DNA from: Sipunculus nudus
Taxonomy: Eukaryota; Annelida; Sipuncula; Golfingiida; Sipunculidae
Assembly (NCBI GenBank): GCA_026874595.1
Contig: CM049316.1
Span: 60,831,676-60,895,675 of the forward strand
Length of the DNA stretch: 64,000 bases
Reading direction: 5' to 3'
Shown here piece by piece: positions 9,701 through 58,600 of this stretch. A model generated the notes under the pieces. It did not search any database. It saw only the letters and a list, made by a program, of their open reading frames with translations, and had not been told where the DNA came from. The position numbers and the translations under genes are program-made. Numbering within the stretch: the first letter of the stretch is position 1; each line of letters begins with the position of its first letter.

Positions 9701-12700
9701 CAAGCCATCCTGTCTGTTCCTCTACTTCTGAATTATTCCTGGCCCCGTGCAATTAAAACCTCATATCTAGAATACAAAATGATAATTTAAATCATTCTTA
9801 ATGTATTGTTACTTCATTCAATAGGTATTAGACAGTGCCACCGATGGGGCTGAAAAGAGTACTCAAGTACTCGAGTCTGGATGATATTTACCTAGTACTC
9901 TAGCACAAAATTTTGACTTGATCACTTTTGTCTGTCTACAGGCATGTGAATTAATATTACTGCGAACATACGGGAAGTCTTTACCTTGGAGCTACCTGTG
10001 CCAGTTTATTTAACAGAGGTCGGTCATGACACTTTTTTTCTTTTGTTACATGGAAAATATTTATTATAAAAATATCAGCTTGCTCTCCAGTGAATTCCTG
10101 CTTTAGGAGAAGTTTAAAGTATCACAAAATCAAAGTTGGTTTATTTAAATATTATTATGCATCAGTAAACAAATGCTCTTTTATATCTCCATTGTGTTGC
10201 CATGACGAGTAATCAAGTCTGGGTCAGTAAATGCATGTAGAGTATTTGAGTCCAAAATTTGGTACCCATTTCAGCCCTAGCCACCAACAAGCCATGGATC
10301 TTTCCTTTTAGACATACAGATACAGAAAGTAAACTTTAACCTATAGTTAACCTGTAATAATCCCCACATTTAGTACCACTAGGACTGGGCACGTTGGCTT
10401 GGCACAGGATATACTAAAAGCCATGATATATCAGGGACAGTGTGTGCCATATCTACGGGAAACCCTGCACTGTGTACAGCACCACAAATGTTTTTTTTAA
10501 TGTGTGTGATTTATTCTGGGTACTATCTTGTATATACTGGTATATTATCAGGACCTGACATTAGCACTTGTCTGTTTAACTGAGGCTAGTAAAACCATTT
10601 TTCTGTTTGAATCCATGAATTGTGCAGGGGAAAATGTAATGGCACCAAGGCCAGTTGACAATGGTTTCACCAGTAAACATGACATGAAATAAACTTGAAA
10701 TGGTCATATTTAATTTTAACAGGTAACCTAATGAATGATTCTAGCCCATATAGTGAATTGAACAGAAATCAATAATGATATGATTTTAGCACACAGTTGT
10801 GTGAATGATTCAAGCTATGGTCCCTGACTTTTAAGTCCTACTGGTTCTAAATTAAACTAGAAATTTGCTCTCAGAGAGCACGTACCTCCACCATGACAGC
10901 TAATTACTCCATATGGCATTGTCAAAAATGCAGCATTTTTCTTTTTAGAGAACCTGTGAGCTTATGCGATGGTGTGGCGTCGGCCGTTGTCCGTCATCTG
11001 TACGTTAACCTATACTATCTTGAAAATGGCAAGAGTTAGCATCACGAAATTTTATGCAAAAAATTAGTCTTAAAAAAAAACTCTATCAGATTTCCCTTTT
11101 TTTTTGGCTATTGCATTTTCTTAGATTTTATAGGGAAAAAGCTAAAATGCTCAAAAAATCTTCTTCTCTGAAACAGTTTAGCCAAATTGTCCAATATTTC
11201 ACAGAAATGATTCCTGGAACAATCTCTCTCAAGTTTGTTCGAATGGTTTAAGTTCGGTGAATTTTGGCCAAGTTACAGGAAGTTGAACTTAGTCATCTGT
11301 CCAAAAAAGCATACTAAATTTACAATCCCAGAAATGGCACGAGCTTTCATCACCAAATTTTATGCCAATGTTGGTCACATGAGTCATATCTGAAATTGAG
11401 GTATTGGTGGCGCCACCTGCATCGGCCTTTTTTGTACGGGGGTCATCAGTGCCCGTATCATACTGACTGCTATAAAAAACTTCTTCTCTGAAACCATAAG
11501 GCCAAATTGTTTATTTTCGCACAGAAATGATCCTAGGGTAGTGCTTTCTGAAGTTCAAATGGTCTCAGTTCAGTGACTTTTGGCTGTGTTATGGGAAGCT
11601 GAATTTAGTCATATGCCCATTTTAGCTTAGTGGCTACAAAGAACTTCTTCTCAAAAACCACTGGGCCAAATTCTTAAATTTCACACATAAATTATCCTTA
11701 GATGTAGATAATTGAAGTTTGTTCAAATGGTTTTGGTTCAGTAAATTTTGGCTGAGTTATGGGAAGCTTAACTTAGCCATTTTGCTGTATTTTCCCATAT
11801 GAGTTATAAACCTGCAAAACTTTTTTCAACTGATGCCACTGAGGCCAATTTGTTTAATATTTTACAGGAATGATCCCCTGAATAATTCTTATAATAATTG
11901 TCTTTTATGGTTCCAAAGAATGAATTTTGGCTGAATTATAAAGATTGAATTGAGTCATTTTACCATATATGTTTGCTGTGTGAAGCAGATACATCTAGCC
12001 TGGCACCAGTTTATCAGCATCCATTACATAATGCCTCTAGACATTTAGATTTCAGGTTATCTATGGTTAATATTGACAAGAATGTTTTTAAAAAGCTTTT
12101 AAAAAATGTAGATTTATGCTAAATAAATGCTGTGTTTACAATCACACGTATACAGCTCTCTGTGGGTGTATAAAGATGGCTGTACATGGTTTATAAATAA
12201 TTGGTATCCATACTCAACTTTATTCAAGATTTTGCCATCAGTGAGATGTATCTGTATTATAATTTGCATTCAATATGCATCTGTAGTAATTTTTAGCAAA
12301 CCTGAGAGCTAATGCAATGGTTTGGCATTGTCTGTCATCGTTAACCCATACTATTTCGAAAACAACTATTGCTAGTATCATGAAATTTAATGCAAAAAAT
12401 TAGCCATCTGAAAAACTGCATTTTCTTAGATTTTATAGAGAAAAGGCTAAAAAACCTTTAAAAATCTTCTCCTTCGAAACAGTCAAGCCAAATTGTTCAA
12501 TAATTTACAGAAATAATCTTTTATACCATCTCTCTCAAGTTTGTTGGAATGGTTCAAGTTTGGTGAATTTTGGCTGAGTTACAGGAAGTTAAACTTAGCT
12601 AACTGTCCAAAGAAAGCATACTAAAATGGCAATCTCAGAAACAGCTGGAGCTATCATCACCAAATTTTATGCCAGTGTTGGTCACATGAGTCATATATAT

Positions 12701-15700
12701 GAAATTCAGGTATTGGTGGCGCCACCTGCATTGACCTTTTTTTGTACGAGGGTCATTGGTCATCTGTACATTAACCCATAATTTCTCAGGAATAGCAGGA
12801 GCTACCATCCCTAGATTTAATGCAATAATATGTCACATATCAAATGTTGTGGGATTCTGCTTATTTTTTTGCTGTCTGCATTTACTTAGATTTTATAGGG
12901 AAAAAGCTGAAAAACCTTAAAAAGTCTTCTTCTTGTAAACAGTCCAGCCAAATTGTTCAATATTTTACAAAAATGATCCCTGAGGCAAGCCCTTTCAAGT
13001 TTGTTCAAATGGTTTGCATTTGATGAATTTAAGTGGTGTTACACAAATTTGAACAGTCATTTGGCCAATTAAGCATACTGACATAGTAATCTCAGAAATG
13101 ACAGAAGCTAGCATTACCAAGTATTGTGCAAATGTTGGTCACATGACTCACATTTGAAGTTGCAGATTTTGTGGTGCCATCTACATTGACCTGTTTTTTA
13201 TTAGCAAAAACCTCGTAATTTCAGCCTCTTTCAGCGTAAAATGTTTATGATGAAACTGTCAAGTTGAATCGTTCAATTTTTCAAAAGAATTATCCTAGGA
13301 AATGGTTCTTTCAATCATATCAGAAAAGCTTAAGTTGGTCTTATGGCCATTATTATGTCTATTTCAAACTGAGGACTGCAAAACTGTTCTTCTACAAAAT
13401 TATTGTTTCAATTATAACTTCTGTAACATTGCACAAAAATTATTCATAGGTGGCCTTTGTTCAAGTTTACCTGAATGATTTTTGGCAGAATTATTGGACC
13501 TTTAACAATGAAAGAACTGCATCTTTTGTTATTTTAGATATTTTGATAATAATTTTATGAATATGTCAGCTTGAAAAAAAGCATTTTAGCCAAAGTCTTT
13601 CAGTATGTGTAAACAGATTGACCAACAGACCAAGATTGTGTTTGTATCATAAATAGGTTGAGAAACTGCTAACTGTTTCAGATTTGGATACAGATCAAGA
13701 GTTCATTCAGTGCAGCCAGATATGGGTCAATAGTTCAGTCAGTGCAGCCAAGCACAAGGCATGTGATCACCTCATGGGTGACATGTGAACACCTCATGGC
13801 CACCATGTGATCACCTCATGGGTGTCATGCCCCTCAGGGCTGCATGTGGACTACCAACTGTGTCAGATTATGCAACAGGTCAAGAGTTCACTCAGTGCAG
13901 CCAGGTACAGGTCGAAAGTTCACTCAGTCTAGCCAGGTGCAGGTCATCAGTTCACTCAGTGCAGTAGCCTGAGCCAGCTAGCAAATTTGTCACAGTTCAC
14001 TCGGGGCAACTGCATTTCTCACCTAAACCTGGTCAGCCCCATGCATCAGACTCAAGGTAAGTTTGATGTATTGGCCTGATATTTTGACCAGTCTATGTGT
14101 CTTTGATGGCTTTCTCGTTCACAAGACGGGTGTCGCTACCTACAATGACTTTTGCACAGTGTATGTGCCTGCTTATTTCTACAGAGGAATTTGATATATC
14201 AGCCTGAAATTGGGCATATGTATATATCTCTGATAGCTTTGTTGTATACAAGACTGGTGGTGCCAGCTACAATCATTTTTGTGTTGTGTGCACCCATGCC
14301 AGAATTTCAGCAGTGATTTTTGTGTAATTGTTTCTTATTCAAAATGTTTAGTACTTGCATTGTTCATATACATGAGAAGTAATGGTCCAGCATTGAAGCA
14401 TTATACCTGGTGTATTTCCCAATGCACAGGTTCGCACTAGGCCTATAGGCCTTGTTTTTTTTTAAATTCCTGGATCTAGATGGGGATGCCAGATCTGAGT
14501 CACTCCCAAAATATAATCAATTGTTCCTTGTATCATTGCCAAGCTATCCTGAAAGTTTCATCTAATTGTATCCGCCAAAACGAAGTTTTGCGGATACTTT
14601 GTTTTTGACCGGGTTCCGCCGCCGCCGCCACCGCCGCGTTCGTTTCCGGAGAACTCCTCTGAGACTACTGGACAGATTTTTCCGAAACTTACACAAATTA
14701 TCGGGTCACATGTGAACTGGTGCCTAACCAAGTGACCTTGACCTCTGACCTTTCGTCTCTGCCCAGCGTCCGTTTGTGCGTCTGTTTCCACACATAAACC
14801 CATATATCTCGGGAACCGTTTGACCGATCCGGAAAAATTTTTTACACAAATGTAGCCCTGGGAAAGCTTTATAACATACACAACAAAAGGTGGCGCCACC
14901 TGCAACCATGTTTGCACAGTGTCCATCTGTTCATCTGCCTGGGGTTAAAATCACTCATATCTCTGCAGTGATTTGACTAATTCACCTAAAATTCGGCATG
15001 CATATACATCCTAGATAGCTTTCTCGATTTTGTGACAGGTGGCGCCACCTACATTCACGTTAACGCTCCACACATAATCCCATATATCTCGGGAACCGTT
15101 TGACCGATCCGGAAAAAATTTTTACACAAATGTAGCCCTGGGATAGCTTTATAACATACACAACAAAAGGTGGCGCCACCTGCAACCATGTTTGCACAGT
15201 GTCCATCTGTTCATCTGCCTGGGGTTAAAATCACTCATATCTCTGCAGTGGTTTGTTTAATTCACCTAAAATTCGGCATGCATATACATCCTAGATAGCT
15301 TTCTCAATTTTGTGACAGGTGGCGCCACCTACATTCACGTTAACGCTCCACACATAATCCCATATATCTCGGGAACCGTTTGACCGATCCGGAAAAATTT
15401 TTTACACAAATGTAGCCCTGGGATAGCTTTATTACATACACAACAAAAGGTGGCGCCACCTGCAACCATGTTTGCACAGTGTCCATTTGTTCATCTGCCT
15501 GGGGTTAAAATCACTCATATCTCTGCAGTGGTTTGACTAATTCACCTAAAATTCGGCATGTGTATACATCCTAGATAGCTTTCTTGATTTTATGACAGGT
15601 GGCGCCACCTACATTCACATTAACACTCCACACATAAATCCATATATCTCAGGAACCGTTTGACTGATCCGGAAAAATTTTTTACACAAATGTAGCCCTG

Positions 15701-18700
15701 GGATAGCTTTATAACATACACAACAAAAGGTGGTGCCACCTGCAACCATGTTTGCACAGTGTCCATTTGTTAATCTGCCTGGGGTTAAAATCACTCATAT
15801 CTCTGCAGTGGTTTGACTAATTCACCTAAAATTCGGCATGTGTATACATCCTAGATAGCTTTCTTGATTTTATGACAGGTGGCGCCACCTACATTCACAT
15901 TTATGCTGCAGACATCCAAGCTCATATCTCGGGAACCGTTTGACCAATCAGGAAAAAAACTTTACACAAATGTAGCCCTTGGATAGCTTTATAACATGAA
16001 CAAAAATGGTGGCGCCACCTGCAGCCATTTTTGCACAGCGTCCATCTGTTTGTCTGCTGTGGGATAAAATTACTCATATCTCTGCAGTGGTTTGACTTTT
16101 CCACATGAAATTTTGCATGTGTATATATCTTGGATAGTTTCTCGTTCAAATAACAGGTGGCGCCACCTACAATCATGTTTATGTGGCAGAGATCCATTCT
16201 AATATTTAACACATGTAACTCTTTATCCCCTTGCCACTCAATCAATGCCTCACTTCACCCGTCCTTCTCTGATTTTGGCGGATACACGTAGTCGCTTGTC
16301 GACTACCCGTATTCTAGTTCTAGTAATAATTTTTTAGTTATGTTCCTAACAGACAAAAATGGCAAACAGTGCCACTGAAAGTGAAAACATAGCCCACACC
16401 ACTTAGCAGAGGTAATAAAAGCCAATTGTAATAGGGTTCTCAGCCATCATAAAGTTAGGTTAAACCTAGAAAATGAGTTTGCCTTTAATCCTGTCAGGGA
16501 GTTTAAGAAAAATAGGCCCTAAAACTAGGAAATTTCAGGGATTTGATTGGCTAAAAAGAACAATACATATAGGTCAGTTTGTTATATTTTATCTGAATCA
16601 TGTTATATTTTAAGTCAGACAACATATCCTCTATATTCTTGACCTTATTAGTTTTTTAACCCAGGAGTATATGAAAATAATTGTCATGGAGTTTTGTTAG
16701 TGAAAACTTAGGTAATTTTATTTCATGAAATGCTAGGATCTCTTTTGTATAGAATGGCAACTTAACACTTATTTTTAATTATAAACTTTTTTCATTTTAC
16801 ATGGATTGTACAACTAGTTATCATAACTAATACGACACACTCTGCATGGCTTTGATGATAGCATTCTTTAGTCTCTCAAGATGGGGAAACAGATGGACCC
16901 CGGAGAAAACCACTGACCTTGGACAGGGTATTTTAACCCTCTCTCATAGCCTGATCACAGAAAAAACTTGGGTTGCCAGTGGAGAGAGTCGAGCATTTTA
17001 CCCCTCAACTATCCAGGCCCCTTTCTCCTTAATAATTTGGTTCTGCTAGTTCTTTGGGCCAGTTATACCAAACTGAATTTCAAACCCTTGCACTGACTGT
17101 ACTTGACGTTATCATCCCAAATCTGCCAACCTTGGATGAAGAATTTGAAGCACAATTAGATATAATGGTTGTTCTGACCTGTTGGTCTGTAACATCCAGA
17201 TACATTATTTTTTAACACGCCTTTTCAGTCAGCTTGATCAAATAACCCGCAGGCCATAATAAGCTGCAATTATATGTCACTGTGGTTTTTTCCTGTGGTT
17301 TGTTTTGGCAGCAAAGGTCAGACCAGTTATTTCTGACTGTGCTGTAAAACATTCAAACTGATGCTGTGATAATGTATTGTCTCTTATCACATTTCACAGA
17401 TAATGTTAAAATATAAATTATCATGAGTATTTAACTCTAATTTGATTCATAATTATTTGATTTACTGTGATAAGTAATGATAAATAATTTGATTTTCATA
17501 GTGATACAAATAAATCAGCTTCAACAAACCTTGTATTAAGTGAAACAGGGTTCTTGCAGCGTCTGGCATGATTTAAATCAAGTGATCAAACCTTTAATCA
17601 TAATCAAATCATGATTTAAAATACTATGAAGAAAGTAATATAAATTTTACTTTGTTTTAAGCATCACTGGTCAGTATTACCTAACTAAATATAAAGTGAA
17701 AATCATTTGAGTTTCATGGAAAAATATGATATGAACATGCAGATTTGTTAGGCCACCAGAAGGCAACTTGTGTTCCTTATAGTATTTCAAGCCTCACTGT
17801 GACCAGTTTATTTTGAGCTTGCATACTCTTAAAGGGACCTATTCACATACAAGGTATTTTAAATGTACATGAAATATAGTATTTTCTCCTAAACATTTGT
17901 TGGTATCTGCCAGTATTTTGTACTAAAACATTTGCTTACTCCTGTACACAAGTGGAAGCAAATTTGCACCTGGTGCAATCAGTGGTACAAACGAAAACTG
18001 TGTACCTCACCTGGTAGCTCATCTGTAATGCACAACTTCGCAAATCTAGATTTTTCAGGCTTCCAACCAGTTGTTTCATCTGTTTTCTTCTTTAATGTTT
18101 CATCTCCTTTTAGATTTGTTTTCCAAGAACATGATTGGACCTTTGGTCAGGTAATCTTGTTATGGTAAACAGACGCACGTGGGCTGTGTATAATCAAACA
18201 GAAAACCATAACAACATGTAAAACAGGTTGATTGGAGAAGCTTGTGTGCCAGGATGGTTTTACCAGGGGCCTTTTATATTTAGCCAGAATGGTCTGATTG
18301 TGTTAAAAAATAAACATAATATTGCATATGTTTAGAAATTATTTAAGTAAACGTCATGAAAGCTTTCAGTACTGTTGTGCTAATGTTTGTGTGGTACTTT
18401 TGTTTCAGTAAATGATCGGCCTCAGATCCTTCAGATTTTTAACATGCTTTTCAAGTTGACTTTTGTTTGTTTCAGAAAATCAAGCTAGAATGTGCCAAGA
18501 ATCACAATTTCTCCATCAAGGATGCAAAAAGGCCAGACAATCGAACAAGAAACCGATACAGAGATGTCAGCCCATGTAAGTTGCAAGTAGAATCAGCAGA
18601 TAGACTTTGGTGTTTGATAATGAACACTGTGTGTGAAAATGTGGAACCCATTTTTTTCAGTCTGAAAACTCTGAAGTAATTTGTTGTGAAAACTTGAAAA

Positions 18701-21700
18701 CCCAATGAAATGTTGGACAGGGATTGCTGTCCATCATGTGTTTCTATATTTTGTGAAAATCACACATATCTCAGGAATGGTTTGATGTATCAGCCTGAAA
18801 TTTTGCATGTTCAGTGATCTGTGATAGCTTTTAAGTTTATCTCATACACAAGGCTGTTGGTGCCACTTACACTAATTTGTGTAGTTTTGTCTGTCCATGC
18901 ATCTTGGGATACAATTTTGGAGGGATATCATGCCATTACTCATTTGACACATCACTTGTGTGATTTGGTGGGTACAAATTGTCGCTTGTTAGCTTTCCAT
19001 ATTCCAGTTTAATGTGAGGGTTTTGTGCAGATTGGGTTTTCTCACATTACATTATTCAGTGTCATTGTATCCTGTAATTATAATAATGTTAATTTCTTGT
19101 GCAGCTTTTTCTAATGTAAATGTAGCCATGTTTTCTTTCTTGTTAGAGTCACTTGTAGTATTTGTTTGAAACTAGTGTGAATTATGTCACAATTTGTATT
19201 TATAAAAATTAATATCAGTTAATACATATAATTTTAATCTATATATTTTTAAGAACTTTATGCTGAGAATTTTTGTACATTTAATCATTCATTTGAGGAT
19301 TTCATGTATACTTAAAAAAATAAATTGAACCTTCATGTTCAGTTTTAATGGAAAATGTGTTCAATAGTAAATCTGTCAAGTTACAGCGTTACCAGTCAGT
19401 GATCACGGGCCGTTAATATTCCGAGTAACAATTGATCGGACTAGGAAGTGAACCAGAACAGTACTTGACAATACGACATTTGTAATGAATGCCTGCTACA
19501 TGTATAGGGGACCCTTAGGAAGTTGACTATAAATCAGGCACTGATAAGTAGGTTGAGATAATGGCGGAAGAGGCAGTAGTCAAATATAAATCTAGGTTTA
19601 CTTGATATTAGAGTGATTAGACATACACCCTTAGTCTTATCACATGTATGTCACTCTGTACTTTGGAATTTGTTCAGTTTAGAACATAACTAATGCACAT
19701 TACAATACAATTAACCCCAGGTGCACATTAGGATTCCATTATTACCTACAGTAGTTCCATTAAAATTCTGAAGTGAATGATTTATCTTACAGTTCTATTC
19801 AATGCTTGTTAACTTTTGTTTTAACAGTATCTAAAGGCACTTAGATACTGTTAGACATCTTGAAGCGACCAAGTTTCCTTGAGGATACTATGATTTACTG
19901 AGAGTATCTTGGTGTTACTACTGTTTCAGTTTTCATTTAACCTCTTCTGCTATTTATTAATGAAAAACCCAAATGTTGTAGAGTCCCGTCTTTCCGATTT
20001 CTCTGACAGGACTCTTGACAGATTTGTTCTGGTTGATATGACTTCTTTACATGTACATACATCATCGTTTGTTATAAATTTTTCAACATGCAAGAAATTT
20101 AATTGATTATATTATTATAAAAGAAAACAACCAATCATCAGTATGATTGATTAATTGGTACACCACTACTATAAATCCTTTACTTCTCACAGGATCACTA
20201 AAGCTTGATTTAGATTTACACCTGGAACTCCCTGACTTGGCTAGAATATCTAAAGTCAGACTTATTGCATATTTATTTTTCAATTCAGAAGATGTCAAAT
20301 AACCTAAAACAAACTCTCTCAGTAGTAACTGCTGAAAATGTTTAAACTCTATATTTTAATATGAACTGTGCTAGGAATTGTCTGTATCTGATATAATTCT
20401 GAACAGGAGAGGGTTTGATAAACAGATTAACAGACATAAGTGAAAAAAAAAATGGTTTTATTTTATGCCTATCATCTGTGTATATTATGTTTGTATATCT
20501 TCTGCAGATGACCATAGCAGAGTGAAGTTACAGAGAGATAGCCTTGACTACATAAATGCAAGCCTTATACAGGTCCCACAGGCTGACAGAAGGTATATTC
20601 TCACACAGGTCAGTGAAATCATATAACGGTAGAATAGACAATATGTGATCAGTTTTGTGGTCAGTAAGTTATCAGCCACTTACAGTTTACACCTGATTTG
20701 TATATCTAAAGTTATCATACATTTGCCAAATGAGCATCTTAGTCACATTTTGGCGAACCTGTGAGCTTATGCAATGGTCTGACTTTGTCCGGCATCTGTC
20801 GGCCGTCGTCCGTTGTCTGTATGTTTACCCATACTATTTTGAAAGTGGCAGGAGTTAGCATTACCAAATTTTATGCAAAAAATTAGTCATCTAAAAAAAC
20901 ACTATCGGATTTTGCTTATTTTTTGGCTAACTGTATTTTCTTAGATTTTATAGGGAAAAAAGCTAAAAAAACCAGCAGAGATGTTTGTGTAATTGTTTCC
21001 TGTTCAAAATGTTTAGTACTTGCATTGTTCATATACATGTTACACATGTATTTGAAAAGGAATGGTCCAGCATTGAAGCATTATACCTTGTGTATATCTG
21101 ACTGCACAGGTTCGCATTAGGCCTGTAGGCCTTGTTCATAAATGTATGTGGCGCCACCTTATTAGGACTAATTGAGGTATTCTTTAGGTCCCTGGACGGG
21201 CTGAAAAATTGAACCCGCACCCGCCCCACATCATGCCCTGTCAGCCCACACCCCACCCCGCAATCATAGAAATAAATTCAGACTGCCCCACCCCGCAGTT
21301 ACTATGATTCTTTCAGCCCGCACCCGGCCCCCCCCCCAAATTTTCTTTCAGACCGCACCTGCCCCGCCCCGCATTTTTCAAGTTTCCGGCCCGCAGTCCA
21401 GCCCGTTAAATAATTAAAATAGTTTTTGGATCCAAAGGTTTACATATCAAGATATTTATCAGCACATATATAAGACACACTTATTATTGATATATATGAA
21501 ATGTTTGATGATTGGAATGAAAAAATACGTTTTTGCAATAATTCAAACCATAATTCATGAAATATTTTTAAAGACATGTTTGATTGGTTAGATGGACTTA
21601 ATATATTCATATCAATTTAACACACCTTAAATATGTTTTCATTGTTCATATACATGTTACACATGTACTTTAAAAGGAATGGTCCAGCATTGAAGCATTA

Positions 21701-24700
21701 TACCTTGTGTATATCTGATTGCACAGGTTCACATTAGGCCTGTAGGCCTTGTTCATAAATTATGTGGTGCCACCTTATCAGGACTAATTGGGGTATTCTA
21801 CTATTCCTACATGATACACCTGTGCCAAATTTTATAAATGCTCAGCGGCTTGCCAGAAATGTTGATGATGTAAATATAGTTTGAAAAGTTCTAATAGCTG
21901 TAAGGAGGATATACTGTGATTAGCTACGATTCAGAATTTCTAACTAGTTAGCGTCATTTCGGCCCTCTGACATTAGAGTTTTTGACCAGTGTAACACTGG
22001 CTGTCAGTGCTGATCAAAGATTATAGTCAACTATTCTTCCCAATACTAAGTATTTATGGCAACATTATTAGCTCTTCAAAGCCATGATGAATCATAAGTG
22101 AAGTAAATCTGTCCAAAAGCTTAGATATAAATCATTCACATTTATTGTTTATGTAAAATATTGCATTTTAATACTACAATATAGGGTATCACATAGATTG
22201 AGTGCCATAATTTTGTTCAATAGCCTTTGTCAATGAGCACTTGGGTTGTATTTGCAAATATGACATTTATCACAACAGACTGCAAAACTGGTGTTCATAT
22301 AGCTGGACCAGTGCAGTCATCTTAGTCGTGTTTCTGTTGTAGGATGAATACATCTGATATTTGGGTGCAAACCCTGTGCCAAATATAGTTCTCAAAGTTG
22401 GTGCCCTGGAATGTTAATTAAATGGTTTTAATTTAAACCTGTATTTTTCCCGAAAATTTTTAATTGAAATAATTGAAAGACAACCCTAGACGCCCTGTTC
22501 TTCAGATATCTTGCAGCAACACACAGAATCAAGTGGAAACAATAAATGTCACTTCGCGCAGAGTAAAATATGTAAATTATTGGAATTTTTGGTGTAAAAT
22601 GGGGCCCATTTAATTCTATTAAAGATCTTAGATAACTATGTCTTGTTTGGGAGACTGGTGGCTCCACCTATTTTCTTTTTCTTTGATTTTGTGTCTTTTA
22701 ATACCCTCGTCATTCACATTGGCACTTTTAAAGTAGTGTGAGCATTATAAGCAAAATACTAATGGACAGAAATAATAAAAGATGAAATAATAAATGGTTG
22801 TTATGTATTTCATCCTGATTATTGTATTCAGTATTGCCATTGCTATTTTATTTTACAGGGTCCATTGGCCCACACGTCTGGTCATTTCTGGCTCATGGTT
22901 TGGGAACAAAATACAAAGGCAGTGCTCATGCTCAATAGAATCATAGAAAGAGGACAGGTAAGGCACATCACATGAGTGTACTCCTACTTTTAATTGAACG
23001 ATAGGTCATATTACACTGCCACTTTGTTCCCGCTTCATCCACCCGTCATGACCTTGAAACAATCAAACATGCTGTACAAATTTGCCCATGCATAATTAGC
23101 AGTTTCCAACTTCTACCGCTTGGCGGTGTGCACGTTGGGGAGGATCGCTTCGGTATTAGAATGAGTGTTTATCTTAATTAATTCAAGTTTTCATCGAGAT
23201 GTTGTTTTTAATGAAGCACTTAATAGTTATTGACATAGAATGACCAGTAAAAGATTGTTATTTGCGAAAAATAGTAAAGAATTCCACCCTTGACCATGAT
23301 GCCGCTTAATATCAGCGTTGGAATGTGAAATTTCTGTGAAATTCTTGGATAAAGTTTATAAAATCGCATTCTAGATGGGCTTTTCTTCACACTAGTATGT
23401 ATTGATACGTTAACCAGTGAAGAATAGGTAATTTATTTGTGCAGGGTACCAGTCAGGTCCTGCCTTTTATTTCTGATTTAAGGCCTCTCAGGGCAAAATA
23501 ACAGCTGGTGACATGCTCATAAGCAGATTACAAGTCCATGAATTATGTCATATGTCCCCATCTCTTATTAGTTCTTTGCAGGTCATGCCATATTCATGAG
23601 ATGTTCATGTGATAGGCAAATACATGCAGCCTCCATAGGAAAGTTTTGTATGTGCTTGAGACTTTAATAATAGCCATGTATAAATTTGCCAGCAAAACTG
23701 ATACCAGCCCAGTGAGCAGTTCCCAGAGCCAATATTGAAACACTCACTGGCCACCTTACCCTAGGTGTTAATTTCAAGCAAAGGGTTAATGCTGATTACT
23801 TTGGTCCGTTCCACTACCCCTCTCCACCTGATTTTTAGGGATCATCTCCTCATAGGTAAACTTGCCAAACAAAATTTGTACCAATTGCAGAATGAGGAAA
23901 ATACATAATTTTTGGTACCCTTCCTGCTTATGATATAAATATTATTCACTTTACGGCATGGTATACATGTCTCATATATCCCTGATTCGTGGTGTCCTGA
24001 ACATGTGACCATTATTTATCCTGGTTGGATATGGATATGAAGAAATGTGACTTAACACTGAAGGGCATGCACAAGGAGAATACAAGCCACTCTGTAAACA
24101 GGTCAGCAGCTCCTGATTATTGTTCCAATGAATGTGGATGAATCTTTTGTGCCCAACATCTGTTATGTCATCATCACTGTTCCCTGCCAGGCCCATTTAA
24201 TAGATTGGTGGTAAGATGTCGCTACAGAATAGACTATTTCTCATTAAATGATTTTAAATTGTTAACAGGAAAATGAAATATGTAGGCTATTATTCCCAAA
24301 ATAGTTAATCGCACATTTTCCTCTTTCTGAAATACAGGCAAAAAGTTTTCGGCTTTCATTGACTTGCAAAAAGATAATCGACAACAAACACATGGACAGG
24401 GATGGTGGAATGGACTAAAGCGCTCCATTAAGGGGGAACATGACACTTTACTGGCACCCCCTACTGATGACACTGCAAATTAAAAATATCTGGTTTAATT
24501 ATATTATCACGAGGCTACATATTTTGCCGTTTGTGACTTTTGTTGTCATGAACAACGTCATCGCTTCAGGGCATCATTTGAGAAAAGTAACTAAGATGAA
24601 CAATTATTGTAGGAATGCTCAGTGTGACTGCTTTATTTAATTATATTTTCAAATAGTATCAAAGTTTTACAAAGATAATTTCACCAGAATATCACCAGAA

Positions 24701-35177: not shown

Positions 35178-35260
<83 letters not shown>

Positions 35261-36216
35261 CTGAGTTAGAGTGTCCCAAGGGGAAATGATATGTGTTCAA
35301 TTGTAAAGGATTGTGTAAAGTTTAACCCTTTTATTATTTTATGTAATTTTCTTATCATTATAAAATTAGACTTTGTGTCATTATATGTTTAAAGTGAAAT
35401 GTAAGCCTCAGTTACCAGCGCAGTGTTTACACAACTGACGGGTTTGTTTAAGGCAGTCGCTTATGGTCATTGACTGCAACAAGGTCCTAAGTCCGGAAAT
35501 TTGTGCATCCCATCGGAGGTTAGGGCCCTCAGAACCGAGCGTCTGTAATAGATTTTGAGCATTAGAGATGCTTACCCCCGCTTTCCTGAAAGCTAATAAT
35601 ATATATAAGTTTATAGTCATTTATTAAAAAGGTTCTGTTGATACCAAAGGTTTTTAAATAAAAGTAAAATGATATATTGAATCTTAATTCTTCTAGCCAC
35701 AGGATGCTGGATGCTTTACCAAAAGTAAAATTAGAAGTTCTAAGTGACACAGTGACATACTACATTGCTACATGCATGAGAACTTTTATTTTATGGACAA
35801 CTATTTCTGGATTAATCCAAGTAATATTCAGTTTGGAACCCTTGCGAAGAGCTGAAAAAAAGTGAAAATTGTGAAGTTCAAACCTGTGAATATGAAACCC
35901 AACAACTGTATTTTCTTCAATATCAGACCATTCCCAAACAAGTATTGTTTGCAGGAATTAGGAGTGAAAGTAAACATCAAATGGTTCATGCCAGGTCTTC
36001 TGTTGATATGGCTATAGATAAAGCAGTGATCTTTAATGAGGAAGCTTTATTATATAGTCCTTCTTTAGGCTTATTAAAAAAAGTGCATCTTATCAGTGAA
36101 TACTGTTTATGTTCTCTGAAAAGAAATTATAGTGACTTCCTATAAAAAAAGCAAGTACTTAATAGATGACCCTAATTCAGACATCAGGGCAAGCATGTAT
36201 CATATAAACTGGTACA
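33591..36216. other. PTP 3' flank / probable 3' UTR
   Basis: No coding exon. The first AATAAA that I noticed after the stop is at 35007-35012. A TA microsatellite lies at 35181-35258. Where the transcript ends is not determined by the sequence; a long 3' UTR is possible. Confidence 0.4.
35181..35258. repeat. (TA)n microsatellite, about 39 units
   Basis: Uninterrupted TA dinucleotide run. Confidence 0.95.
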
Positions 36217-36221
36217 TTATG

Positions 36222-36476
36222 CAGGGCTAGACATGGACAATCAACCACTTTCCCGAGGCAAGTGAAAGTTCCAGAAAATAGTGGTAGGGCAACTAGAAGT
36301 CGCCTTCTACTTGCCCAACTGGGCATAAACTTTTACCCTAAGCATGAAAAAGGATCTTTGTGTTCTTGAAATCAATCATATTTGAAGGGCAAGTAAAAAT
36401 TCATGTAGGGCAAGTAAAAACTAAATGTTACTTGCCTTGCTGGGCAAGTACTTTCAAAAGTTAATGTCAAGCCCTG
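36222..36476. mobile_element. hAT-like MITE (CAGGGCT ends, 5-bp direct repeat)
   Basis: CAGGGCTAGACAT (36222) pairs with ATGTCAAGCCCTG at the right end (ends 36476). TTATG directly abuts both sides (36217-36221 and 36477-36481). The interior has recurring GGGCAAGT motifs (GTAGGGCAAGTAAAAA and similar). Ends starting CAG with 5-bp duplications fit the hAT5-type group better than classic 8-bp hAT. Confidence 0.7.
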
Positions 36477-36481
36477 TTATG

Positions 36482-39400: not shown

Positions 39401-40170
39401 CAAAGGGTCAAACAGATGAACCCTTCTAGAACATTGACTAGACCTTTTATAGTTTACTGCCAAACATGCACTGTGACGCTATATCAAGACATTGAAAGAA
39501 TATTATCTGTGCATGAGTAAAGCTTCCAAAATAACAGTGTTGTAGTAGCAGGTTTTTGCCAGGGCTTCCATTACAATGAGATAAACTGAGAAGAAAAGCC
39601 CAAAATGATATAAACTCAAAAGTTCAAAAGGTGTATTATGCTTATGCTGTTGTATCACTGTGTATAGCATTACATTGAAAGAGTATACCTCAGAGTCACA
39701 TAGCAAAGAAGGGAGTCTCTTACCTCAAAACAAGGTGGAGATTTATATCATAAATGGGATAAACAGTAAATTGGATACATCTTGCATCCATGGAAGGTTT
39801 ATTAAAAATGCCACAAATGTATGAAGCTTACCTGCAGATTTGTTGTTGTTGCAAATCATACAGTACAGTAGTTTTATGGTGCTCACGGAAGTTAATTTAA
39901 ATAAGTGAAGCTATTGTTTGGCATGTAAAAGGATGCAATAAACCATACCATTTATAGTATACAAACATACATTTTACTCTGTGCTGGGAGGTGTCTTCTG
40001 AGTGAGATGGAACCATGTTGATTTGAAAGTTTTGTGGTAAATCTATAGTGTGTATTTTATGGAATTAGCATTTGGATGTTTATGTCTGTGAAGGGACATG
40101 AAGAAGACAGTGTTTGGGGTCCTTTCTGTCATGGTTGTATTGTCCTGTTGTAAACTTTTTCTCCGTGTAT
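36482..40170. other. AT-rich region, no gene seen
   Basis: No conserved frame or splice-bounded exon on either strand. It is poorer in repeats than the rest of the window. It contains a G run at about 36620-36636, an AATAAA at 37615-37620 and a strong hairpin (listed separately). It may be partly a long PTP 3' UTR, or intergenic. Confidence 0.45.
38601..38658. ncRNA. Strong short hairpin, pre-miRNA-like
   Basis: Arms 38601-38623 and 38636-38658 pair at 21 of 23 positions, with single mismatches at positions 6 and 12 and a 12-nt loop. Arm contents include GGTTCCCAGCCTCTC and GAGAGGCTGGGTACC. The size, pairing and loop fit a microRNA precursor. The sequence is not one I recognise, and a tiny foldback element would look the same. 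Strand cannot be decided. Confidence 0.35.
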
Positions 40171-40179
40171 AGGGCATTT

Positions 40180-40330
40180 ATGGGAGTCTGGATTTGGACT
40201 CAGAGTGCTGATTCGAGTCCACGTTTTCAGGGACTCAAGACTTGGTCTTGGGACTGGATGGTCATGGACTCATGGAGGTCAGGATTTGAGAAATCAGGCC
40301 TAGTCCATCTAGAGTCCAGGCTTAAACAAG
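40180..40330. repeat. GGACTCAAG-type repeat
   Basis: Dense GAGTCC / GGACTC words (TTTGGACTCAGAG, GATTCGAGTCC, CTAGAGTCC) resemble those at 27045-27760. Ends are not defined. Confidence 0.4.
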
Positions 40331-40339
40331 TGGCCCATG

Positions 40340-43300
40340 GGCCATGACACTCAGCTGAATTCAAGGAGCCTTGAACAATAGGTGAAATGACTCCCAGAAA
40401 GCTTAAAATCATGCAGTTTATCAATAGACCTTAGGTGTAGGTTACAGTGACCTAATTCCACGTCAAACTGCTACCATTTGTGCAACTGACAAATAGAGTG
40501 TTAAAATCATGTTCTTACACACAGATTGCAGAATATTGGTCAAGGTGAAATTATTTAAGGTTTCCAAGGAGATTTTGTATGGACCTCCCTGAAAGTCCTG
40601 TATGAGGATTCTATGCCAAGTGGATACAATTTGTGCCCGATCTGACCTACTGAATGCTTAACTGAATGACACCATAGCTAAGAAACTAATTTTGTCGGTC
40701 TGAAAAATAGAGAAAAAAATTGCATAAAAACTAGAATACAGGCAGTCCATCAAATCACAGGAGCATGGGCTGAGGCATGGAATGTCTCCTGATCTGTCAG
40801 CCCTCAAATCTGCTGGTATGGCAGATGGCAAAGTGTAGCAAGACTTTGGAAGTACCAGCTTTTGCAGAGGTGTAATATGTCAAACTTATAAATACATGTA
40901 AAAATACACAACTAGATGACACCACAGCTAATTAAGAAACTAATTTTGTCAGTCCCAAAAATTTCTCAGTCCAACCGTTATGATTTGTCTGGTTAACAGT
41001 TGACCACATCGAAAATTCGTAAAAATTGGAAATAAAATACAGGTAGTGCCACCATTTCTGCAGAAACTGAAGAAAGAGTCCATGATCAATATGCATGCAA
41101 GAATCATGCTGATTCAATGCATTTTATCTACTGGAGCTTTTGTATCAAATTTTGTATCAAATTTTTAATTATTCTGAGGGGTACTTCTGAGCCCCATAGC
41201 TCGGAGAATATGGGTAACAGAGACCTAATTTCAGGTTTCCACAGAGATATATTCATGAACCTGCTTTGATGTCTAGTTAGAAGATTCTAGGTCCAGCGGT
41301 TAAGAATTGTGCCATGTTAACAGTTGAGTTTCATTGCAGATCTAAAAAAAAAAAAAATCATAAAAAATGGAAAAAAATACAGGTGGCACCACCAGTCTGC
41401 AGGAGGTGATGGAACACCCAATGATCAATGTTCATGCACATAATCATGGTGATTAATGCAGTAGTTATTCAGATACTTGAGTTTTTGTATCAAAATTTTG
41501 ATTATTCTTGGGGGTACTTCTGAGCCCCATAGCTGGAAGAAAATGGGTAACAGAGACCTAATTTCAGGTTTCCAAGGAGACTTTTCATAGGCCTCCCTGC
41601 ATGTCAAGAGAGAAGATTCTAGGTCCAGTCGTTATGATTTGTGCCCTGTTAACAGATGACCACATCTTAAGAGGTCTCAAAAATAGAGAAAAAAATTCGT
41701 AAAAATCGAAAAAATACAGGTGGCGCCACCATACTGCAGCAAATGATGACACATTCCATGATCAATATCCATGCAAAAAATCTTGGTGATCAATGCATTA
41801 GTTGTTCAGATACTTGATCTTTTATATCAAATTTTCCATTATTTTGGGGGTACTTCGGAGCCCCATAGCTCAAAGATTATGGGTAACAGAGACCTTATTT
41901 CAGGTTTCCAAGGAGACTTTTCATGGGCCTCCCTGCATGTCAAGAGAGATGATTCAATGTCCAGTCGTTACGACTTGTGCCCTGTTAACAGATGACCGCA
42001 TCTTGACCGTATATTAAGAGGTCTCAAAAATACAGAAAAAAATCGAAAAAATACAGGTGGCACCACCAAAATGCAGAAACTGATGAAACATTCCATGACC
42101 AATATCCATGCAAAGAATCATGGTGATCAATGCAATAGTTATTTAGTTACTTTAGCTTTTGTATCAAATGTTCCATTATTCTGGGGGGGTGGGGGGGGGG
42201 GTTTGGTTACTTCGGAGCCCAATAGCTCAGAGGTTATGGACAACAGAGACCTAATTTCAAGTTTCTAAGGAGAACTTCCATGGGCCTCCCTGCATGTCAA
42301 GAGTGAGGATTCTAGGTCCAGCCATTACGATTTGTGCCCTGTTAACAGATGACCGCTTCTTAAGAGGTCTCACAAATAGAGAAAAAAATTCGTAAAAATC
42401 GAAAAAATACAGGTGGCGCCACCATACTGCAGCAACTGATGACACATTCCATGATCAATATCCATGCAAAGAATCATGGTGATCAATGCATTAGTTGTTA
42501 AGATACTTGATCTTTTGTATCAAATTTTCCATTATTCTAGGGGGGGGGGGTTCTTCGGAGCCCCATAGCTTAAAGATTATGGGTAACAGAGACCTCATAT
42601 CAGGTTTCCAAGGAGACTTTTCATGGGCCTGCCTGCATGTTAAGAGAGATGATTCTAGGTCTAGTCGTTAAGATTTGTGCCCTGTTAACAGATGACCACA
42701 TCTTAAGAGGTCTCACAAATAGAGAAAAAAATTCATAAAAATTGAAAAAATACAGGTGGCGCCACCAGGCTGCAGAAACTGATGAAACATTCCATGATCA
42801 ATATCCATGCAAAAAAACATGGTGATCAATGCAATATTTGATCAGTTACTTGAGCTTTTGTATCAAATTTTTCCATTATTCTGGGGTGTACTTCAGAGCC
42901 CCATAGCTCAGAGATTATGGGTAACAGAGACCTCATATCAGGTTTCCTAGGAGACTTTTCATAGGCCTCTCTGCATGTCAAGAGAGAAGATTCTAGGTCC
43001 AGTCGTTACGATTTGTGCCCTGTTAACAGATGACCACATCTTAAAAAAAAATCGTAAAAAAATCAGAAAAATACAGGTGGCGCCACCAGTCTGCAGAAAC
43101 TGATGAAACACTCCATGATCAATATCCATGCAAAAAATCATGGTGATCAATGTATCAGTTGTTCAGATACTTGAGATTTGTATCAAATTTTCCATTATTC
43201 TAGGGAGTACTTCGGAGCCCCATAGCTCGAAGAATATGGGTAACAGAGACATGATTTCGGGTTTCCAAGGAGATTTTTTATGGACCTCCCAGGATGTCAA

Positions 43301-43412
43301 GTTAGAAGATTCCAGGTCTAGTGGTTACGATTTGTGCCTGGTTAACGGACGGACGGACGCCGGACAAAGGGTGATCGCTATAGCTCAGATGACTTTCAGT
43401 CAGCTGAGCTAA
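40340..43412. mobile_element. Family D element: tandem array of about 340-bp units with 3' hairpin
   Basis: Landmark GGTGGCGCCACC or close variants recur at about 41041, 41382, 41719, 42056, 42412, 42755 and 43076 (spacing 321-356 bp). Each is followed by CTGCAG, AATATCCATGCAAA, ATCATGGTGATCAATGCA, a G run of variable length, GAGCCCCATAGCT and TTTCCAAGGAGA. Older, more diverged units extend left to about 40540. The right end has GGACGGACGGACGCCGGACA followed by an imperfect hairpin whose outer arms are AGCTCAG (43382-43388) and CTGAGCT (43404-43410). Such TGAGCTAAAA ends are typical of bivalve 'pearl'/Helentron-like repeats. A CTCAGCTGA at 40350 may be the left end, but it is too short to prove. 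Confidence 0.65.
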
Positions 43413-43420
43413 AAACCTCA

Positions 43421-45173
43421 CACCAGGCCTGACTTTTAGATTGGAAATAGCTAGAATTAAGACTTATAGTGTGTACTAATGACAAAATATTAAAAAAAAA
43501 CCATATTTAGACTATAAACTCAGTCTCTGCATAGGGGGAAAAATGTAATTCAATATTAAAGTGAAATTCATGTGTAAAAAATTGACATAGGTATGTGCAT
43601 GATCTCTATTTCCTATTTAAAGTGCCTTTAATTAAGACATTTTGAACTTGGACTCAAGGTAGGTGGACTTAGACTCTAACCTTAAAGACTTGGACTAGCG
43701 TGGCTTGGACTCCCCGGGGGGGGGGGGGGGGGGGGGGGCTGTTATGTGGACTTGACTATATCACTGGTATGGGGTGTGACATTTCAAATATAAATTAAAA
43801 CTGAAAAAAATCTAATCATACAGGAACAGATTGTATACAGGCTATTGTTTTTAAAAAAGTTTAAGGATTAGTATTTAAAGCACTAGATGGCCAAAAATTC
43901 ATTCTGTCTGTAAAATACAAAGGAGCTACCAGCCAATGAGATTTTCAATAAAAATTTGGTAGGAATCTTAATCAGACCAAAAAAAAATTTTGGAAATGGC
44001 AGCCAACTGGTGGTAGGAAATTAAATTAAATTAATTGATAAAGAGCTTCAACACCAGTGATATAAGGCTGTTCTTGTCCTTTCCAGAATCCAACCAGTTT
44101 CATCTATTTCAAAATGAGAGATTTGCAATAATTGACAAGATTTTGTCAACACCTTTTGTTTACTTTTGTTATTTTATTACTTGCTTCAATGTATGCCTTT
44201 CATAGAGTACAAATTCCTCCATTAGATGGCTTTGTTAGCAGCAGTTCTTCTCATTCAGACAGAAGTACCAACAAAAATATAATTCAACATTTCTGTCAGG
44301 CTCAACGTACTCTCCCTGGTCTTCCGTGAAATTTCGGGACTAACACGGTCAGTAATACCAAGCTTTTGATGGGATCGCTGCCCTGTTGACAGTGCTATAT
44401 CCTAATTATTGCCACATCTGTATGGATAGGGACAATGTTCAGCACAACCGCATGTGTATTTTTTGTGGAAAATAAATAGAAGAAAATGATCAATATTAAT
44501 GATTTTAATATAATATAATGAGATTTGGAAAACGTCTGCTTGACCTTAAATTCATCTACGAGCTTTATTTGTAAGACTTGACATTTTAATTTGTCTAAGT
44601 GCAAAAACGACCCGGCAGATGTCGCTCTCAACCCATTTGTCAACAAGGTTCGGAAATAAATAATTCACAACCTCCCCGGCAGATGTCGCAAATCCAACAG
44701 TGGCTGAACACCAGGTTGCCATTGGCAACTGGACGCGTGTGACGACTTGCCTGACATATACAATACTGTTAAATGGCAAAACAAAGCTCCATTTTTGTGT
44801 GATATTTAATGTTTAACTGAGAAACTCGCTTCCTAATTCACAACCAAATGTTATAATGAAATATGTTTCAATATGAATATGCACGCCATGACATGCGTAT
44901 TAAACCCGGTAGTTGAGTGAGTCTGTCCTCTCAAATCTCGGGTCACCTCGCACTGTACTTGCACAGGGCAGTTAATAAACAACTACAGACGGGGATTTCT
45001 CAGATATATGGGGAATAAGACGAAATATTACGAAACCGATGGAATAACTACTGTTTGGTATCGCTTGCAAACGTTGACAGAGGGTCTATGGTGACGTTAT
45101 TTGTCTCAGACCACCTTGAATACGCCTAGTGGGTTACAACACTACTATACACATATTGTACTTCATAACAATT
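43421..45173. promoter_or_regulatory. Probable promoter region of CUB/LDLa gene, copy 1
   Basis: Non-coding DNA before the first ATG. It holds a G run (43718-43738), two CGGCAGATGTCGC boxes (about 44612 and 44679), GCCATTGGCAACTGG (CCAAT-type, about 44717) and GGTGACGTTA (CRE-like, about 45089). There is no clear TATA box. The same sites recur in copy 2 at about 48045, 48110, 48147 and 48517. The core promoter position is inferred only from nearness to the ATG. Confidence 0.4.
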
Positions 45174-45273
45174 ATGGCGAAGGGTTGGTGGCAGGTCCGG
45201 TCTGTTGCGGGGATTTTAGCAGTGACATGTCTGGTGAACGCTAAATATTATACCAAGGAGCCCATACCTGAAG
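45174..45273 (+). CDS. Alternative first exon of CUB/LDLa gene, copy 1
   Basis: 100 nt encoding [20 protein letters not shown], then [13 protein letters not shown]: a signal peptide with likely cleavage after VNA. It is identical in protein to the exon at 48601; the only coding difference is GGG versus GGA for one Gly. The donor is GTAAAT, weaker than the GTAAGA of copy 2. It ends in phase 1, so it can splice to 53568 in frame. It may be a true alternative promoter/exon or a product of haplotype mis-assembly. Confidence 0.75.
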
Positions 45274-45297
45274 GTAAATACACAAATAACAGACCAG

Positions 45298-48200
45298 CCC
45301 TATAGCTCAAAGATTATGGGTAACAGAGACCTAATTTCAGGTTTCCAAGGAGACTTTTCATGGGCCTCCCTGCATTTCAAGAGAGATGATTCAAGGTCCA
45401 GTCGTTACGACTTGTGCCCTGTTAACAGATGACCGCATCTTGACCGCATATTAAGAGGTCTCAAAAATACAGAAAAAAATCGTAAAAATCGAAAAAATAC
45501 AGGTGGCACCACCAGACTGCAGAAACTGATGAAACATTCCATGACCAATATCCATGCAAAGAATCATGTTGATCAATGCAATAGTTATTTAGTTACTTTA
45601 GCTTTTGTATCAAATGTTCCATTATTCTGGGGGGGGGGGGGGGTACTTCGGAGCCCAATAGCTCAGAGATTATGGGCAACAGAGACCTAATTTCAAGTTT
45701 CCAAGGAGAACTTTCATGGGCCTCCCTGCATGTCAAGAGTGAGGATTCTAGGTCCAGCCATTACGATTTGTGCCCTGTTAACAGATGACCGCTTCTTAAG
45801 AGGTCTCACAAATAGAGAAAAAAATCGTAAAAATCGAAAAAATACAGGTGGCGCCACCAAACTGCAGCAACTGATGACACATTCCATGATCAATATCCAT
45901 GCAAAGAATCATGGTGATCAATGCATTAGTTGTTAAGATACTTAATCTTTTGTATCAAATTTTCCATTATTCTAGGGGGGGGGGGGGGTTCTTCGGAGCC
46001 CAATAGCTCAGAGGTTATGGGTAACAGAGACCTAATTTCAGGTTTCCAAGGAGACTTTTCATGGGCCTCCCTGCATGTTAAGAGAGATGATTCTAGGTCT
46101 AGTCGTTAAGATTTGTGCCCTGTTAACAGATGACCACATCTTAAGAGGTCTCACAAATAGAGAAAAAAATTCATAAAAATCGAAAAAATACAGGTGGCGC
46201 CACCAGGCTGCAGAAACTGATGAAACATTCCATGATCAATATCCATGCAAAAAAACATGGTGATCAATGCAATATTTGATCAGTTACTTGAGCTTTTGTA
46301 TCAAATTTTCCATTATTCTGGGGTGTACTTCAGAGCCCCATAGCTCAGAGATTATGGGTAACAGAGACCTAATTCCAGGTTTCCTAGGAGACTTTTCATA
46401 GGCCTCTCTGCATGTCAAGAGAGAATATTTTAGGTACAGTCGTTACGATTTGTGCCCTGTTAACAGATGACCACATCTTAAAAAAAATCGTAAAAAATCA
46501 GAAAAATACAGGTGGCGCCACCAGTCTGCAGAAACTGATGAAACACTCCATGATCAATATCCATGCAAAAAATCATGGTGATCAATGCATCAGTTGTTCA
46601 GATACTTGAGCTTTTGTATCAAATTTTCCATTATTCTAGGGAGTACTTCGGAGCCCCATAGCTCGAAGAATATGGGTAACAGAGACCTGATTTCGGGTTT
46701 CCAAGGAGATTTTTTATGGACCTCCAAGGATGTCAAGTTAGAAGATTCCAGGTCTAGTGGTTACGATTTGTGCCTGGTTAACGGACGGACGGACGCCGGA
46801 CAAAGGGTGATCGCTATAGCTCAGATGACTTTCAGTCAGCTGAGCTAAAAACCTCACACCAGGACTGACTTTTAGATTGGAAATAGCTAGAATTAAGACT
46901 TATAGTGTGTACTAATGACAAAATATTAAAAAAAAAAACATATTTAGACTATAAACTCAGTCTCTGCATAGGGGGAAAAATGTAATTCAATATTAAAGTG
47001 AAATTCATGTGTAAAAAATTGACATAGGTATGTGCATGATCTCTATTTCCTATTTAAAGTGCCTTTAATTAAGACATTTTAAACTTGTACTCAAGGTAGG
47101 TGGACGTAGACTCTAACCTTAAAGACTTGGACTAGCGTGGCTTGGACTCCCGGGGGGGGGGGGGGCTGTTATGTGGACTTGACTATATCACTGGTATGGG
47201 GTGTGACATTTCAAATATAAATTAAAACTGAAAAAAATCTAATCATACAGGAACAGATTGTATACAGGCTATTGTTTTTAAAAAAGTTTAAGGATTAGTA
47301 TTTAAAGCACTAGATGGCCAAAAATTCATTCTGTCTGTAAAATACAAAGGAGCTACCAGCCAATGAGATTTTCAATAAAAATTTGGTAGGAATCTTAATC
47401 AGACCAAAAAAAAATTTTGGAATTGGCAGCCAACTGGTGGTAGGAAATTAAATTAAATTAATTGATAAAGAGCTTCAACACCAGTGATATAAGGCTGTTC
47501 TTGTCCTTTCCAGAATCCAACCAGTTTCATCTATTTCAAAATGAGAGATTTGCAATATTTTACAAGATTTTGTCAACACCTTTTGTATACTTTTGTTATT
47601 TCATTACTTGCTTCAATGTATGCCTTTCATAGAGTGCAAATTCCTCCATTATATGGCTTTGTTAGCAGCAGTTCTTCTCATTCAGACAGAAGTACCAACA
47701 AAAATATAATTCAAAATTTTGTCAGGCTCAACGTACTCTCCCTGGTCTTCCGTAAAATTTCGGGACTAACACGGTCAGTAATACCAAGCTTTTGATGGGA
47801 TCGCTGCCCTGTTGACAGTGCTATCTCCTAATTATTGCCACATCTGTATGGATAGGGACAATGTTCAGCACAACCGCATGTGTATTTTTTGTGGAAAATA
47901 AATAGAAGAAAATGATCAATATTAATGATTTTAATATAATATAATGAGATTTGGAAAACGTCTGCTTGTCCTTAAATTCATCTACGAGCTTTATTTGTAA
48001 GACTTGACATTTTAATTTGTCTAAGTGCAAAAACGACCCGGCAGATGTCGCTCTCTACCCATTTGTCAACAAGGTTCGGAAATAAATAATTCACAACCTC
48101 CCCGGCAGATGTCGCAAATCCAACAGTAGCTGAACACCTGGTTGCCATTGGCAACTGGACGCGTGTGACGACTTGCCTGACATATACAATACTGTTAAAT

Positions 48201-54290: not shown

Positions 54291-54335
<45 letters not shown>

Positions 54336-58170: not shown

Positions 58171-58600
58171 GTATCCGCCAAAACAGAGTTTTGCGAATAC
58201 TATGTTTTCACGCGGGTTCCGTATTCGAGACTTATGGCGCCACCTACAATCTTTTTTTTTTTTGCGTTGCATCCATCCATGCGTTTGCCATCTTTTCGTC
58301 TTAGTGATTGATTCAATGTGTTGGGCTGAAAGTATGCATGTCTAAAGGCTATAGATCTTGGATATCTGCATCTCCTACTCAAGAATGGTAGCGCCGACCG
58401 CAATCGTTTTTGTGTGGCGTCCATCTGGGCATCTGTTTTGGGTGAAAATTGCTCATATCTCAGGAGTGGTTCAATGTATTGGTCTGAAATTTGGCATTTC
58501 CATCAATCTTGGATACATTTTTTGTAGACCCGACATTTGGCGCCACCTACCTCTCCGATATCTCCATCTCTTATTCAAGACTGGTCTTACTCTACAATAT
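58171..58600 (+). mobile_element. Family A element, left end with truncated body
   Basis: GTATCCGCCAAAA (58171-58183) is identical to the family A left end, with the same fold-back (GCGAATAC at 58193, one change) followed by ACTATGTTTTCACGCGGG. Internal units carry ATGGCGCCACCTAC and TTGGCGCCACCTAC and the CTCATATCTC AGG phrase. It stops at a short TA run near 58600 with no right inverted repeat or hairpin. Confidence 0.65.

Follow-up and report, generated by a model that had tools for sequence, protein, structure and literature searches.

A 13-bp box with a putative protein-binding role in the central repeats of HINE families in Sipunculus nudus

Four arrays of tandem repeats in a 64-kb stretch of the Sipunculus nudus genome (C11:60831676-60895675, hereafter the window, meaning the whole stretch that was analysed) are the central tandem repeats of non-autonomous Helentrons (HINE elements), and they carry exact or decayed copies of the 12-bp palindrome GGTGGCGCCACC, here called boxes. 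This is a transposition-related setting, as an earlier reading of these letters (the original prediction) had suggested among other options. Paired subterminal inverted repeats (subTIRs) and a 3′ palindrome or stem-loop are present in all four window families, A to D, with the latter starting at 16288 in A, 14439 in B, 32811 in C and 40331 in D. The subTIR pairs are exact over 13 bp in A, 14 bp in C and 11 bp in a short B copy, and have exact cores of 9 bp in the window B element and of 9 bp within 13 in D. An inverted repeat adjoins the 5′ subTIR in A, C, D and an A-type remnant, and the central repeats are preceded by a microsatellite, which is a GTCC run in D and, as judged by eye, GCC runs in A and C and a GTC-rich run in B. 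No frame longer than 128 codons was found within the four elements, short frames not having been searched against Pfam. The same anatomy is on record for HINEs of mites and flies (PMC4067079) and for those of the Pacific oyster (PMC7492417). DINE-1 and the mite HINEs likewise have subTIRs, a 3′ palindrome and central repeats and are non-coding (PMC4067079), and the oyster Cg_HINE elements are likewise non-autonomous Helentrons with a subTIR, an inverted repeat, a microsatellite, a 3′ subTIR and a palindrome (PMC7492417).

Element B (10950..14452, plus strand) was delimited by its end motifs and repeats. It begins with the 5′ subTIR GAACCTGTGAGC (10950-10961), carries boxes that are exact at 11406 and 12715 and decayed at 13170, and ends with the 3′ subTIR GCACAGGTTCGC (14424-14435) and the 3′ palindrome AGGCCTATAGGCCT (14439-14452). 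Near its 3′ end it contains two A-like units (14129 and 14256), so modules do move between families; modules are also shared among the Cg_HINE elements of the oyster (PMC7492417). A short B-type element without central repeats (20753..21132, plus strand) has a 5′ end, a 3′ subTIR and the palindrome AGGCCTGTAGGCCT. The sequences TGTGGCGCCACC (21147) and TGTGGTGCCACC (21763) lie just beyond the 3′ end of two B-type 3′ copies that are 94.5% alike, and fall outside the B-type element end as placed here. Element A (14568..16318, plus strand), recognized by its end motifs and dimer array, consists of the 5′ subTIR GTATCCGCCAAAA with its inverted repeat (14568-14597), a dimer array (14787-16179; 280 bp per dimer) in which nine boxes are exact and one, at 15729, is CpG-decayed, the 3′ subTIR TTTTGGCGGATAC (16273-16285), a stem-loop (16288-16306) and the end CTAG/T. 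Two A-type remnants also lie on the plus strand, an old one at 18729..19012, which has one unit whose box (18856) is decayed and a 3′ end that has degenerated, and another at 58171..58600, which retains a 5′ subTIR with its inverted repeat (58171-58200) and has three units, all decayed (58233, 58387 and 58536), and for which no 3′ end was found.

Element C (31275..32839, plus strand; end motifs and repeats) has the 5′ subTIR GTATCCCCAGACAA with its inverted repeat (31275-31301), exact boxes at 31607, 31933 and 32476, the 3′ subTIR TTGTCTGGGGATAC (32794-32807) and the stem-loop GGCACCTGCGGTGCC (32811-32825). Positions 31959-32265 of this element are occupied by a repeat of another kind, about 147 bp long and lacking the palindrome, and a solo C-type unit with the decayed box GGTGGCTCCACC (22657) lies at 22618..22770 on the plus strand. 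Element D (40331..43410) is on the minus strand, as indicated by its end motifs and units and also by the masked profile matches described below. Its parts are the 5′ subTIR AGCTCAGCTGACT (43398-43410), an inverted repeat (43382-43394), the GTCC microsatellite (43347-43358), units of about 340 bp whose boxes are exact at 41719, 42412, 42755 and 43076 but decayed at 41042, 41382 and 42056, a partially matching 3′ subTIR (40348-40358) and the palindrome TGGCCCATGGGCCA (40331-40344). A recent 3.4-kb tandem duplication (41859-48725), one breakpoint of which falls within the D array, has copied part of this element: 41859-45297 and 45296-48725 are 97% identical over 3455 columns. The truncated second D copy (45296..46846, minus strand) has its own 5′ subTIR, exact boxes at 45847, 46193 and 46511 and a decayed box at 45502.

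All 21 exact copies of GGTGGCGCCACC that the original prediction had placed in the window were recovered, and none appeared in 100 dinucleotide shuffles. The copies are interdependent, as nine lie within the single array of 280-bp dimers and the three in the second D copy stem from the tandem duplication. In the whole genome (1,426,538,692 bases) we counted 111,729 exact copies, or about 78 per Mb, a density which the window exceeds approximately fourfold. Two controls, the pattern read backwards and the palindrome GTGGGCGCCCAC of equal base composition with one central CpG, occurred 14 and 5 times, respectively. This count had been proposed as a check on the original prediction, and it lies thousands of times above the controls instead of near expectation. 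Lost copies had also been described as mostly CpG-decay forms. The CpG is gone in 8 of the 13 window copies with one or two mismatches, but the plain transition forms GGTGGTGCCACC and GGTGGCACCACC account for 4 of the 13, so this description holds in part. Genome-wide, the CpG transition forms number 22,806 + 22,877 = 45,683, and single changes at the two outermost positions 5,842 + 6,018 = 11,860.

The association with HINE elements is also evident elsewhere in the genome. Exact palindromes were found in seven of 20 random 10-kb stretches, all seven of which contain HINE end motifs with no more than a single mismatch; six of the seven have an A-type end pair that encloses palindromes (for example L014 7828/9783, L017 8236/8909 and L029 5322/6367). 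Another random stretch, L011, has D-type ends and no palindrome. Two patterns were used in a search for relatives, in which no viral contig matched. The sole prokaryote contig match (L001) was taken as chance, its context being unlike the cores as judged by eye.

In order to compare the families outside the palindrome, we built a profile for each family in which N stood in for the palindrome, and ran these profiles against the window after masking its palindromes as well. The original prediction had treated the four families as unrelated. Under masking, the A profile matched a C unit (E 0.086) as well as minus-strand units of D (best E 0.028), and the D profile found a C unit (E 0.073). Combined profiles gave stronger matches, namely A+C to D (E 0.0012), A+D to C (E 0.0021) and C+D to A-type units (E 0.002-0.02). 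The single-family matches are weak, matches within the duplicated D array depend on one another, and a match at 20031-20065 that was judged to be chance still reached E 0.079; the case for homology therefore rests on the repeated agreement in register and strand, as the cross-family matches among A, C and D are in register, on the right strand and mostly upstream of the palindrome. In anchored alignments of the consensus flanks, upstream scores of A/C/D pairs were reached by 0-7 of 1000 shuffles, and downstream flanks could not be told apart from shuffles. From these sequence comparisons, A, C and D cores are homologous outside the palindrome. Family B behaved differently. No A, C or D unit in the window matched the masked B profile below E 1, the masked A+C+D profile picked up only one of eight B units, with 20 of 1000 shuffles scoring as high, and upstream anchored scores were reached by 15-155 of 1000 shuffles; the downstream flank of B compared to A-a scored above all 1000 shuffles. 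B may be too diverged, or may have acquired just a short piece of the core. The claim of unrelatedness thus fails for A, C and D and may or may not hold for B, and conversely descent of all four from one ancestral unit, which had been offered as an option, is supported for A, C and D, with B lacking a clear masked match. A further test on shared words was not leaned on: the palindrome and three overlapping words were the only 12-mers common to four of five element loci, but random control segments, which could overlap one another, also reached four in 8 of 300 trials.

Similarity between the families is not uniform, as a refutation of the original prediction would have required, and peaks at the palindrome. 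Among 24 aligned units, between-family identity was 0.883 at the palindrome compared to 0.377 in the 110 other columns (0.893 and 0.408, respectively, without B). When the columns were permuted 20,000 times, the level of the best window was never reached. These units had been chosen partly for carrying the motif, so the test was rerun blind to the palindrome, using masked profiles of five core types (A-a, A-b, B, C and D) on the window itself, on four loci close to the beginning of contig 1 (L002, L003, L005 and L006) and on the 20 random 10-kb stretches (L010-L029); L004 and L007-L009, which overlap, and L001, which is bacterial, were excluded. The search detected 137 core units, 69 of which had an exact palindrome at the expected place, with one mismatch in 35, two in 20, three in 10 and more in 3. 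At places 30 or 45 bp to either side, no more than 2 of the 137 came within three mismatches. In the random stretches alone, the palindrome was exact in 39 of 82 cores, within one mismatch in 60 and within three in 81, and none of the 39 exact palindromes in these stretches lay outside the cores detected with the palindrome masked.

The palindrome also stands out within most core types. We compared its ten non-CpG columns with the other non-CpG columns in 126 of the 137 units, short matches and the duplicated D array having been dropped. Conservation was higher at the palindrome in A-b (0.946 vs 0.798, p=6e-5), D (0.961 vs 0.807, p=0.001), A-a (0.959 vs 0.855, p=0.006) and C (0.875 vs 0.748, p=0.015). 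It is not always the top stretch, as 1-6 of about 110 windows were higher in A-a, A-b, C and D, and 22 in B. Furthermore, the CpG of the palindrome survives better than most other CpGs in A-a and A-b, and in single arrays the palindrome stands out in A (2 of 132 windows as good) and C (2 of 57).

The kept unit extends one base beyond the palindrome. A T follows it directly, in element sense, in 95-100% of the sampled units of every core type, so the kept unit is the 13-mer GGTGGCGCCACCT, found for example in unit C1 at 31607..31619 on the plus strand. Genome-wide, 1,182 of the 111,729 copies have neither an A before nor a T after, where approximately half would be expected at the GC content of the random stretches (0.376); the strand of each copy was undetermined in this count, which supports the T without proving it copy by copy. 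None of 24 changed arm pairs in 14 decayed window copies (three of them outside the cores of the four families) was compensated, and no covarying pairs were present in an alignment of 13 cores. The lack of compensation and covariation favours recognition of the duplex sequence, and it seems to be the sequence, rather than a hairpin, that is kept. A hairpin or RNA structure was rejected, the consensus fold of the 13 cores amounting to three weak pairs without covariation, and a structured RNA search found no Rfam family at gathering scores and no tRNA. An E-box, CACCTG, was likewise rejected because the base following CCACCT differs among core types.

The best-supported reading, to which we give roughly even odds, is that the palindrome is an ancestral core-repeat box kept because a putative protein binds it, aiding the spread or persistence of the elements. 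In this model, several HINE families would carry an ancestral core-repeat module with the palindrome at its centre, and a putative protein, either a host factor or part of the Helentron machinery, would bind the double-stranded 13-mer GGTGGCGCCACCT. Binding would help the elements to replicate, expand or be retained, with selection acting on the spreading element lineages. We infer that the pattern reflects such selection on spreading lineages and then neutral decay of inserted copies. The binding site suggested by the original prediction is plausible. A more specific version is less likely than not, namely that several HINE families with different ends, among them B, most of whose repeat lacks demonstrable homology, share a putative protein-binding 13-bp box because it would be needed in cis for their propagation, and that in this way they would have seeded a single genome with more than 110,000 sites for one protein.

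Several observations weigh against a box maintained by binding. The excess in B was not significant in the genome sample (0.943 vs 0.868, p=0.10, n=7), and the within-type p-values are too small since units of one array are related by kinship. In the single D array, 57 of 309 windows were equally well kept and the palindrome CpG survives in 4 of 7 units compared to 3-4 of 7 for other CpGs, and in the single B array 153 of 353 windows were equally well kept. In addition, the box has been lost in one C unit and in the outermost D repeat, and selection could be mimicked by gene conversion or by a locally low rate of mutation. The lack of protection within the D and B arrays, together with the homology of A, C and D outside the palindrome, would also be consistent with passive common descent, in which the palindrome is the leftover of one ancestral repeat with no force acting on it. 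We consider this unlikely, as it does not account for the conservation peak at the 13-mer between families and in four of the five core types, or for a CpG in the 13-mer that outlasts most others in A-a and A-b.

Somewhat less likely again is a recombination or template-switch signal, by which breaks or replication pauses at the palindrome would set repeat boundaries, array growth and module exchange. Homology stops 17-30 bp past the palindrome in B units, 16-18 bp past it in C2 (relative to C1 and C3) and 38 bp past it in the last A unit; the different 147-bp repeat begins 15 bp past the C2 palindrome, and the 5′ end of the A-type remnant at 58.2 kb is joined approximately 13 bp ahead of a palindrome. 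There is precedent in the clam phBglII400 satellite, whose junctions lie within a 12-bp palindrome in 13 of 16 cases (PMC5139131), and stem-loop models of array growth have been published (PMC8268682). In S. nudus, however, D repeats run on past their last palindrome and apparent end, which weakens the case for a junction hotspot, the downstream sequence is so poorly conserved that homology would fade there without any break, and arm changes are uncompensated. The recombination hotspot of the original prediction is not supported in that form, boundaries lying near the palindrome in some elements and not in D.

The consensus of CTCF consists of CCA upstream of AGRKGGCRS. It is improbable, and the least probable of these alternatives, that the elements spread a half site, GCGCCACCT, for a CTCF-type zinc-finger protein, since the CCA half is absent, with 2-5 mismatches to the consensus in every reading of all 21 copies, and the left arm GGTG, unexplained by a half site, is kept about as well as the right, even though GCGCCACCT is exact in each family, including the conserved T, the same nine bases also occur in a guide for the CTCF site upstream of EGR1 (PMC6344568), and in a cephalopod, domain borders are reported to carry CTCF sites (PMC10658181). 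At 61671-61712, GGTGGCGCCACT lies in apparently single-copy sequence between the inverted repeat ACTCAGAA / TTCTGAGT, about 100 bp ahead of a G+C-rich stretch with AAAATGGCGGC; it could represent host use of a similar site.

Bivalve HINEs are already known to have satellite-like arrays, some of whose repeats contain conserved motifs or palindromes. The central satellite-like repeats of Cg_HINE are mostly 140-180 bp, whereas here repeats of about 340 and 460 bp also occur, and Cg_HINE has two conserved segments, which may or may not include the 13-mer, in otherwise dissimilar monomers (PMC7492417). The accessible text on DINE-1 and mite HINEs contains no mention of a box common to the central repeats of different families (PMC4067079). 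Among clam satellites, phBglII400 has a 12-bp palindrome inside the monomer and DTC84 a conserved palindrome near the repeat junction, both alike by description; the clam junctions lie in the palindrome, which is not clearly so here (PMC5139131). Diverged BIV160/Cg170 monomers keep two conserved motifs and have a Helitron-type link, again compared by description (PMC5139131). CENP-B-box-like motifs provide another parallel, being short motifs kept across different satellites and thought to bind protein, as proposed here, but they are 17 bp long and of other sequence, and the box described here sits in dispersed transposons (PMC5139131).

The 13-mer, its sharing across families with different ends and its count were absent from the literature text searched on bivalve Helentrons, satellites and palindromes, figures and supplements being outside the search, and the BIV160/Cg170 motifs or the phBglII400 and DTC84 palindromes could be identical to the 13-mer. 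The letters of GGTGGCGCCACC appear in print in one unrelated paper, and 11-base pieces of it in ten papers, in two of which they belong to guide or target sequences for genome editing. Non-autonomous Helentrons frequently carry satellite-like arrays, and a box kept in several families while its surroundings change points to a function of the arrays, and the 13 bp could serve as bait for finding the putative protein. If a host protein does bind it, a single genome would hold a very large set of binding sites that transposons have spread.

Other features of the window include a 35-bp unit repeated in tandem about 96 times with 89% matches (4788-8174) and exon-like frames with matches to a CUB and to an LDL-receptor class A domain (53510-55182). 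In addition, an exon-like frame at 27990-28289 matches protein-tyrosine phosphatase (PF00102, E 2.4e-21), with element C located about 3 kb downstream.

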